The position numbers and the translations under genes were made by a program. Below, piece after piece: positions 21,541-62,792 of a stretch of 64,000 bases of DNA. Each line of letters begins with the position of its first letter. Positions within the stretch are counted from its first letter, which is position 1. The notes beneath the pieces were generated by a model. It had not been told where the DNA came from, did no database searches, and saw only the letters and a list, made by a program, of their open reading frames with translations. Origin of the DNA: Verrucomicrobiota bacterium (GTDB lineage Bacteria; Verrucomicrobiota; Verrucomicrobiia; Opitutales; Opitutaceae); assembly GCA_030601755.1 (NCBI GenBank), contig JAUWBF010000007.1, positions 1-64,000 on the forward strand, given 5' to 3'.

Positions 21541-21563
21541 TTTGTCACTTATTAAGTGACAAA
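21541..21563. repeat. Perfect palindrome at the glnT-creatininase junction
   Basis: The arms TTTGTCACTTA and TAAGTGACAAA flank a single T: 23 bases, perfectly palindromic. Read on the minus strand it supplies the last codons and the TGA stop of the creatininase-family gene. It is the reference copy of a family seen again at 29214, 29280, 62497 and 62572. It is A/T-rich against a very GC-rich background. Confidence 0.9.
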
Positions 21564-29035: not shown

Positions 29036-29385
29036 CGGATAAAGGGATAATGAGGGTGGGCGGCGAAAACATCGCCGCGCGGGGAGAGAGCGTCACTTCA
29101 ATCCAGTCCCGCGCCCGCGGCGAGCAACCCGATTCTGCAAACACTTTCAGCACGCCTCCCCCACCCGCTCCGCCCACTCACACCCCCACCTCCCGGACAA
29201 CGCGCACAAACCATTTGTAACTTATTAAGTGACAAATTTTGATAGCTGCATCCCGCTTTCAGCAAATATCTTAAAGGCGATTGTCACTTATTAAGTGACA
29301 AAGTTTCCGGCGTGTCGGCGCAAGTGGGGCGGTCGGGTCAGACCCGAGGCGGAGTGTGGGGGCCGCCGGGGTGATCGGATTAGGC
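29036..29385. other. 350-base intergenic region between def and the oxidoreductase gene
   Basis: No gene is visible. The region holds a pair of palindromes (29214-29236 and 29280-29302, listed separately). The 43 bases between them are A/T-rich. It lies upstream of the oxidoreductase gene and downstream of def, both on the minus strand, so the oxidoreductase promoter should be here; none could be fixed. Confidence 0.6.
29214..29302. repeat. Composite pair of GTCACTTA/TAAGTGAC palindromes
   Basis: The first copy (29214-29236) has an altered outer half, TTTGTAACTTA instead of TTTGTCACTTA. The second (29280-29302) is palindromic over at least 21 bases. They are 43 bases apart. The same composite, reversed and with the same altered outer half (GTAACTTA), is found at 62497-62594. 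This points to a defined element of about 90-100 bases rather than scattered single sites. Confidence 0.88.
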
Positions 29386-61242: not shown

Positions 61243-62709
61243 TCACCCCTTCACCAGCGTCACCACGCACTCGAGGTGGCGGGTCTGCGGGAAGAGATCA
61301 AAGGGCTGCACGTCGGTCAGCGCGTAGCCGGCCGCGGTGAAGTGGCGCAGGTCGCGCATCTGCGTCGCCGGGTCGCAGCTCACGTAAACCACCGCGCGCG
61401 GACCGTAGGCAAAGAGCTGGTTGAGGAACGACTCGTCGCAACCCTTGCGCGGCGGGTCGATCACGATGGCCGTGTCCGCGGCGGGGAACTCCAACCCGGC
61501 GAAGATCGCCGAGGCGTCACCCGCGAGGAAACGCGTGTTGCCGATACCGTTGAGCTCCGCGTTTTGCTTGGCGAACACGATGCTGCTCTCGCTGATCTCC
61601 ACGCCGGCCACCTGCTCGAAGGAGCGCGCGCAGCTCAGCGCGAACAGGCCGCTGCCGCAGTAGGCGTCGACCAGGAAACGCGCGCCGCTGGCCGCGGCCT
61701 TTTCGCGCACATAGCCGGTGAACGCCGGCAGGATGAACGGGTTGTTCTGGAAAAAATCGCGCGCGAGGAACCGCAGCTTCAGGTCGCCGACCGTCTCGGT
61801 GACGATCTCGTCGTAGTTGGTGGTCACGTGGCCCGACGCGTCGCGCAGCAGCACGGTGGCCGCGCGTTTGTAGGTGTGCCAGCGCGCGTGAATGTCGGCG
61901 CGCACCGCGGTCAGCCGGTCGTTGATCGCCTCGGTCGCGATCTCGCAGCGCGGCACGTCGACGAGGTCGAATCGCGTGCCCTGCCGCAGAAACCCGATGG
62001 GCCGCTCCGCCTGCGCCACCGCCGACTCCGACTTTGGCGTTTGTGATCTGGCGTTTGGGATTTCCGCACTTCGACGCGTCGCGTCGAAGTGCGGCGTGAT
62101 TTTCGAGCGATAGCCGTATTCGCGCGGCGAACCGATGACGGGATTCACCGCATGCTCCAGGCCGGCCATGTGGCGAAGCAGCTCCTCGACCTGACGGCGC
62201 TTCCAAGCGAGCTGCCCGGCGTAGTTGAAGTGTTGATACTGGCAGCCGCCGCAGCGGCCGAAGAGCGGGCACTTCGGATCGGCGCGCTCGGGCGACGGCG
62301 TGAGCACCTCGATCAGATCGGCCTCGGAAAAGTTCTTCTGGTTGCGAAACACCCGCGCCCGCACCCGTTCGCCCGGCAGGCAAAACGGCACCATGACCAC
62401 CCAGCCGCCCGCCCGCGCCTTGCCGCCGTCCGCAGCACCGTCGGCGTCACGGCCGGCCTGCGCGCCCTCCGAATCACCGGCGTCGCCGCCGGCGGATTTG
62501 TCACTTATTAAGTGACAATGGCTCGGGTCCGACGGGGCGGACGCGTGGGACGAGGCGGCGGTAACGGGCGGTTTGTCACTTATTAAGTTACATTCCGCCG
62601 GGAGGGGCACGCGGCCGAGGCCCAGGCCGAGGTTGGTGAGCGTGGTGATTTCCAGCTCGATCTCGGCGTGGTAGGGGAAGGGATGGTCGTTGAATTTCTT
62701 TTTGCCCAC
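61243..62709 (-). CDS. 23S rRNA/tRNA m5U methyltransferase (RlmD/TrmA family) with inserted TRAM domain
   Basis: The protein has an N-terminal TRAM domain, a [4Fe-4S] cluster motif (CPLFGRCGGCQ), the SAM site (FLVDAYCGSGLFALSCA) and the catalytic Cys (VSCDPATQMRDL). It methylates uridine at C5 in RNA. No in-frame ATG precedes the TRAM domain; GTG at 62709 is preferred, TTG at 62784 possible. The TRAM domain is split: after GLGLGRVPLPAE come about 63 low-complexity residues holding two palindromes (each read as LISDK), then VVMVPFCLPGERVRARV resumes. The gene is divergent from the SpoU-type gene. Confidence 0.9.
   Translation of the reverse strand: MGKKKFNDHPFPYHAEIELEITTLTNLGLGLGRVPLPAECNLISDKPPVTAASSHASAPSDPSHCHLISDKSAGGDAGDSEGAQAGRDADGAADGGKARAGGWVVMVPFCLPGERVRARVFRNQKNFSEADLIEVLTPSPERADPKCPLFGRCGGCQYQHFNYAGQLAWKRRQVEELLRHMAGLEHAVNPVIGSPREYGYRSKITPHFDATRRSAEIPNARSQTPKSESAVAQAERPIGFLRQGTRFDLVDVPRCEIATEAINDRLTAVRADIHARWHTYKRAATVLLRDASGHVTTNYDEIVTETVGDLKLRFLARDFFQNNPFILPAFTGYVREKAAASGARFLVDAYCGSGLFALSCARSFEQVAGVEISESSIVFAKQNAELNGIGNTRFLAGDASAIFAGLEFPAADTAIVIDPPRKGCDESFLNQLFAYGPRAVVYVSCDPATQMRDLRHFTAAGYALTDVQPFDLFPQTRHLECVVTLVKG
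62497..62594. repeat. Composite palindrome pair inside the RNA methyltransferase gene
   Basis: One copy (about 62498-62518) is perfect over 21 bases (TTGTCACTTA-T-TAAGTGACAA). The other (62572-62594) has an altered outer half ending GTTACATT. They are about 53 bases apart. This is the composite seen at 29214-29302 in the opposite orientation, with the change in the same outer position. Both copies are read in the same frame and give NLISDK and HLISDK. Confidence 0.9.
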
Positions 62710-62773
62710 GAAAGACACGAAACACACAAAAAGCCCCGAACGAAGCTGTTTTCTTTCGTGTTTTTTCGTGTGT
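62707..62773. repeat. Mirrored repeat with CACGAAA / TTTCGTG arms
   Basis: CACGAAAGACACGAAACACA on the left is mirrored by CTTTCGTGTTTTTTCGTGTG on the right around about 20 bases. Each arm repeats the word CACGAAA/TTCGTG. Unlike the others it lies between two divergent genes, so both promoters must lie in or beside it. Confidence 0.75.
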
Positions 62774-62792
62774 TGATCGGGCAATAACCACC

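Follow-up and report, generated by a model that had tools for sequence, protein, structure and literature searches.

In a member of the family Opitutaceae (phylum Verrucomicrobiota), the gene for an RNA methyltransferase carries an extra in-frame segment with two copies of a short palindrome. This locus raises the question of what the palindromes are and how they came to lie within a coding sequence. The window analyzed is a contiguous stretch of 64,000 nucleotides from this genome. An earlier interpretation, the sequence-only reading, proposed that a composite palindrome had split the TRAM domain of the enzyme in frame.

A palindrome doublet in the TRAM domain of RlmD

The gene product is of the RlmD/RumA type and scores 273 bits against TIGR00479 in a profile search (cut-off 183.55). 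The true start of the gene is uncertain and probably lies near 62690-62730. The gene and the parts of its extra loop are as follows.

61243..62784, minus strand: RlmD-type 23S rRNA uracil-5-methyltransferase gene, assigned by profile match and conserved alignment with 31 relatives
62406..62594, minus strand: extra loop between two TRAM-domain beta strands, missing in aligned relatives
62406..62496, minus strand: low-complexity part of the loop, without palindrome
62497..62519, no strand: palindrome copy 1, TTTGTCACTTATTAAGTGACAAT, read CHLISDK on the minus strand; 9-bp hairpin, RNA z -6.5, DNA z -8.3
62520..62571, no strand: doublet spacer, 52 nt
62572..62594, no strand: palindrome copy 2, TTTGTCACTTATTAAGTTACATT, imperfect, read CNLISDK on the minus strand

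The palindrome unit in RlmD is 23 nt long (TTTGTCACTTATTAAGTGACAAA), and the two copies are 75 nt apart from start to start. Both sit in a single uninterrupted ORF and are read in the same frame, as had been claimed. In relatives, the Pfam TRAM domain is unbroken (28 bits, cut-off 21). In the RlmD protein of the window, the match is partial, covering profile positions 24-61 with 18.4 bits, which is below the cut-off. The description of a split TRAM domain is therefore correct.

RlmD homologues were found in all 61 family genomes searched. Alignment with such homologues had been suggested as a check, and the 63-residue insert is missing from 29 of the 29 that were aligned; their loop is about 2-35 residues long, contains no palindrome and differs in length between genera. 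Thus, the extra loop is real. The attribution of all of its roughly 63 residues to the palindromic element holds only in part, because about 33 residues (62497-62594) correspond to the doublet and about 30 (62406-62496) to palindrome-free low-complexity sequence. In the AlphaFold model, residues 39-92 have pLDDT values below 50, except for one residue, and this stretch falls between TRAM strands 24-29 and 96-101; the catalytic part is mostly confident. The extra residues are thus predicted to form a disordered loop between two TRAM strands.

Another variable loop of the same protein contains a second near-perfect palindrome, TTCGACGCGTCGCGTCGAA, at 62070-62088. It is present in a single copy in the genome and is unrelated, and we rejected it as a member of the repeat.

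The repeat unit and its copies in the genome

TAAGTGAC occurs eight times in the window, compared with 0.32 occurrences expected. The sequence-only reading had predicted that the element might recur in other coding genes. It does so, and a genome-wide search with TTGTCACTTANTAAGTGACAA gave 75 matches within 3 mismatches, compared with 0 for a reversed-pattern control. The unit is a near-perfect palindrome of 19-27 nt, in which GTnA in the arms and TAwTA at the center are conserved. It lacks a T-run and is identical on both strands. On each strand, one reading frame of the unit is free of stop codons and encodes peptides such as CHL(I/L)SDK or CNL(I/L)GYK. In single copies, complementary bases flank the core more frequently than in shuffled controls, an observation made in one genome. 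Copies in the genome of the window occur as singles and as doublets, and the doublets are mostly spaced by 65-66 or 53 nt. Two further examples lie in the window.

21541..21563, no strand: the same palindrome, as a single copy at a called gene's 3' end
29214..29302, no strand: the same palindrome, as an intergenic doublet with copies spaced by 66 nt

The single copy overlaps the end of the called gene and seems to provide its stop codon.

Placement relative to genes was assigned with a self-trained gene caller for 46 copy groups in this genome. Of the 46 groups, 31 are clearly intergenic, even though coding regions make up 85% of the sequence. In intervals between tandem genes, 21 of 25 copies are nearer the 3' end of the upstream gene by our own count, and intervals between divergent genes hold few copies. 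The GTAG tag is found in 0 of 66 copies. The CGTC tag is found in 8 of 66, a fraction of 0.12 compared with 0.17 expected, and is thus not enriched.

Versions across the Opitutaceae

The exact matches to the palindrome listed among genome contigs all come from Opitutaceae or Verrucomicrobia MAGs. Viral contigs gave no exact match and plasmids no similar DNA, and a phage or plasmid origin was rejected for lack of a match. Identity with an Rfam family was also rejected, as the search returned a single sub-threshold chance match.

Related versions with covarying arms are present in 11 of 38 relatives. The versions in other genera have the form TGTCA-nn-TAwTA-nn-TGACA or GTAACC-TAwTA-GGTTAC, and their arms are mostly complementary. 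Doublets were detected in 15 of 80 Opitutaceae genomes (control, 0), with preferred spacings of 46-47 and 56-57 nt outside the genome of the window. In genomes G040 and G059, many near-identical doublets share a spacer at unrelated sites, which points to recent spread. Where the units are asymmetric (G009, G059 and G080), doublet partners are mostly inverted; symmetric units such as those of the window leave orientation undecidable.

In-frame copies within other genes

At least 14 conserved Opitutaceae reading frames with strong coding signal on both sides contain an in-frame copy, and 13 of these use the one stop-free frame. The host families, several with recognized Pfam domains, include abhydrolase, DNA ligase, SpoU, thiE-like and lipase maturation factor proteins. 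The copies occupy variable loops of otherwise intact proteins. A thiE-like gene has a doublet common to the genome of the window and other Opitutaceae contigs, in which the spacer differs but the palindromes are retained. Allophanate hydrolase has one palindrome version in one genome and another version, identically placed, in a second genome. Lipoate ligase contains an in-frame copy that is missing from relatives.

The RlmD homologue of G052 (L370:339-1721, plus strand) also has an in-frame doublet. It consists of the GTAACC version with copies 54 nt apart, lies in a different loop and reads CNL(I/L)GYK. Together with the copies in many other genes, this doublet makes the case in the window one of many.

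Three side observations concern such hosts. The fourteenth in-frame copy (L039:4025-4047, close to the C-terminal end of a SpoU methylase gene) uses another frame, from which the stop codon has been removed by a single substitution. At L066:2975-5683 (plus strand), a ligase-associated exonuclease is fused to an ATP-dependent DNA ligase, and an in-frame copy lies near the domain junction. The loop that bears the doublet in the G052 RlmD has long low-complexity inserts in other genera.

A fixed site in a SAM methyltransferase gene

One host gene, unrelated to RlmD, carries the palindrome at a fixed position.

L047:3458-4273, minus strand: SAM methyltransferase gene, with palindrome between HADAT and F.GALFMFNG

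In this loop (L047, L300-L369), many genera have a palindrome at the same codon, and others have long unrelated inserts. In a set of 72 sequences (70 genomes plus two further contigs), the palindrome is present at the site in 30 according to a fixed rule. One outer group of eight sequences has a short, 8-residue loop and no palindrome. Within the rest of the tree, the earliest branches have the palindrome, which fits one old gain followed by losses. Parsimony requires 17 label changes on the tree, so repeated gain is also possible. The TT/AA version is found in two non-sister lineages, one containing the genome of the window and the other RX2, GAS368 and G053.

At the fixed alignment offset, 27 sequences form a total of 173 base pairs, compared with 21-109 at all other offsets tried. 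In these sequences, third codon positions are A or T in 50% of cases inside the site and in 14% in the flanks. Among 33 sites, some of which were chosen by searching longer loops, changes on both sides of the stem occupy 52 cells, compared with 21.8 ± 3.9 after shuffling (0 of 500 shuffles) and no more than 23 in slid controls. Within the 25-nt site, pairs 5, 6 and 8 are nearly invariant, and pairs 2, 3, 7, 9 and 10 covary. Selection at the protein level for CHxLxD was rejected, since the residues follow the palindrome version (SNLLGY, GSLLNY, CNLLGY). This variation means that the constraint acts on DNA or RNA.

The version at the methyltransferase site equals that of the dispersed copies of the same genome exactly in 13 of 24 genomes (2.7 expected by permutation), with version repertoires that were compiled by hand, partly from the matches listed. 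When close relatives are dropped, 10 of 20 genomes agree exactly (2.0 expected), and the P value is at the resolution limit of 5e-5. The exact agreements include asymmetric mismatches: GTCATCTATTATATGAC in G085 and G080, GTCACTTATTACGTGAC in G062 and GTCATCTATTAAATGAC in G016. Mismatches common to the site and the dispersed copies suggest copying between sites more than they do selection for a perfect duplex site.

These data imply either recurrent copying into a fixed coding site or co-evolving recognition of it. It is conceivable, as a tentative proposal that we consider rather less than even, that, throughout the family, a hairpin repeat inserts again and again at this one methyltransferase codon, or undergoes conversion there, and so tracks the current version of each genome. 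The element would then be a site-seeking, self-overwriting palindrome with a mover outside the RAYT family, for which coding loops serve as a standing habitat. We found no published report of such a concerted fixed site, although our coverage of the literature is incomplete.

Search for a mobilizing enzyme

Matches to Y1_Tnp were found at 54 loci in 14 genomes, and none has a true copy within approximately 1.5 kb, although some of these loci run into contig ends. The RAYT link was thus tested in 14 genomes and not found. Genomes G017 and G059 contain the elements and gave no Y1_Tnp match; G059 is 84% complete, and the view is limited by contig ends. The genome of the window has two RAYT-like genes at contig edges (L257 and L258; G000, start of C72 and end of C125), each with one flank out of view.

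No clear excess of direct repeats of 2-5 bp, as expected of a target-site duplication, was seen at any boundary tested. No recurrent transposase family lies beside recent copies among the first 25 of 159 neighboring gene families.

Relation to known palindromic elements

Di Nocera and others (PMC3733652) have described GTAG- and CGTC-tagged REPs that form dimers, lie at 3' locations and include in-frame copies in genes; O. terrae and R. conorii have the largest numbers of these in-frame copies. The same study reports that CGTC REPs have no known transposase and that, in one case, recB of two Xanthomonas species has REPs at about the same site. Like these tagged REPs, including the intragenic ones of Opitutus terrae, the present element is a short palindrome with many copies that forms dimers, tends to lie near 3' ends and is sometimes read in frame. 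Unlike them, it lacks GTAG, is not enriched for CGTC, is nearly perfect and has a TAwTA center. Moreover, TGTC is paired within the stem here instead of being unpaired.

REPINs mobilized with RAYT (PMC3116915) share with the present family the spacer-separated doublets, inverted where the unit is asymmetric, the near-identical copies in some genomes and singles that are possibly remnants. They differ in that no RAYT or Y1 transposase is near the copies described here, and in that some of these copies are inside genes. In summary, the elements have the 20-40 nt dispersed palindrome, the spacer doublets and the mostly extragenic placement near 3' ends of the REP/REPIN class. They lack the unpaired GTAG or CGTC tag of the tagged REP super-families, and no RAYT gene flanked by the same REP, as in RAYT-mobilized REPINs, was found among the 54 Y1_Tnp loci.

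The window locus had instead been likened to Rickettsia palindromic elements (RPEs), in another phylum. The likeness holds in that unrelated genes have received in-frame insertions encoding a constant peptide (here, the CHL(I/L)SDK-type frame in 13 of 14). Nevertheless, the REP/REPIN class, with palindromes of 20-30 nt as singles and inverted doublets that mostly lie close to gene 3' ends, is nearer. RPEs are approximately 150 bp long (PMC10969869), and RPE-4 and RPE-6 are CGTC-tagged (PMC3733652). The present element differs in length, with a unit of 23 nt or a doublet of approximately 70-100 nt, and in the phylum of its described host. The change of phylum itself is not new, because in-frame REPs have been published for many species and are most numerous in Opitutus terrae, of the same family (PMC3733652).

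Origin of the insert and alternative explanations

We conclude that the RlmD insert is quite probably a doublet of an Opitutaceae hairpin repeat of the REP/REPIN class, which landed in frame in a surface loop and is tolerated there. The pairing arms, the fixed GTnA and TAwTA positions and the lack of a target-site duplication fit an element that is recognized as a folded strand, in the way that RAYTs recognize REPs. A trans-acting enzyme would recognize the hairpin, probably as single-stranded DNA, and the conserved GTnA and TAwTA positions may be what it reads, with the covarying pairs reflecting the hairpin requirement. It would copy the unit to new sites and overwrite older degenerate copies. 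Singles would mostly be remnants of doublets. Copies that break genes would be purged, leaving those at gene 3' ends and in tolerant loops. Counting against this explanation, no transposase was found near the copies in the 14 genomes, and no target-site duplication was seen. In addition, a purely selfish insert would not be expected to persist as a palindrome at the same codon throughout much of the family.

The palindromes could instead be bound by a dimeric DNA-binding or nucleoid protein that changes its specificity from genus to genus, with all sites of a genome shifting together and the RlmD copy being one of them. Strict conservation of GTnA...TnAC and TAwTA, the preferred doublet spacings and a type that is uniform genome-wide and followed by the methyltransferase site would all be expected of such sites. 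Recently amplified doublets share spacers, however, and shared asymmetric mismatches look like products of copying, not of selection. In one genome, single copies show covariation of bases beyond the core, which a dimer site does not need, and divergent-gene intervals, with their few copies, are a further difficulty. We therefore regard binding sites as unlikely. RNA elements at gene 3' ends, such as terminators or mRNA stabilizers, would account for the 3' bias and the stable RNA hairpins and would make in-gene copies accidents. Without a T-run, with both strands identical and with in-frame gene copies that persist across genera, they have scarcely any probability.

Quasipalindrome correction, in which template switching during replication preserves the identity of the arms and introduces both changes of a pair at once without selection, would yield the compensatory changes found at every pair of the methyltransferase site, and it has been described for yeast coding genes (PMC8604942). 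All stem positions should then drift, yet pairs 5, 6 and 8 hardly vary, and the process offers no way for one type to reach dispersed loci. It is very improbable as the explanation, although it may act in addition to another process. Mobilization by a DDE transposase, as for an ordinary MITE, would likewise fit an element that is short, non-autonomous and multicopy with inverted ends. In this case, each end of the element is itself palindromic, and both the 2-5 bp duplications and a recurrent neighboring transposase family are missing within the scope searched, so we give a DDE origin hardly any credence.

Conclusions

The finding in the window is real and represents a known phenomenon, here in the form of an untagged family not described before. 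With this family, the REP elements gain a branch that has no tag and apparently no RAYT, and they emerge as a recurrent origin of peptide insertions in housekeeping enzymes. The surprising part is the wider pattern at the methyltransferase site. A fixed site that usually follows the version of its own genome hints at a copying or recognition process not yet known. Across dozens of genera, this site naturally records concerted sequence change in a dispersed palindrome, and it opens to direct testing the question of how REPs are copied and remain uniform.
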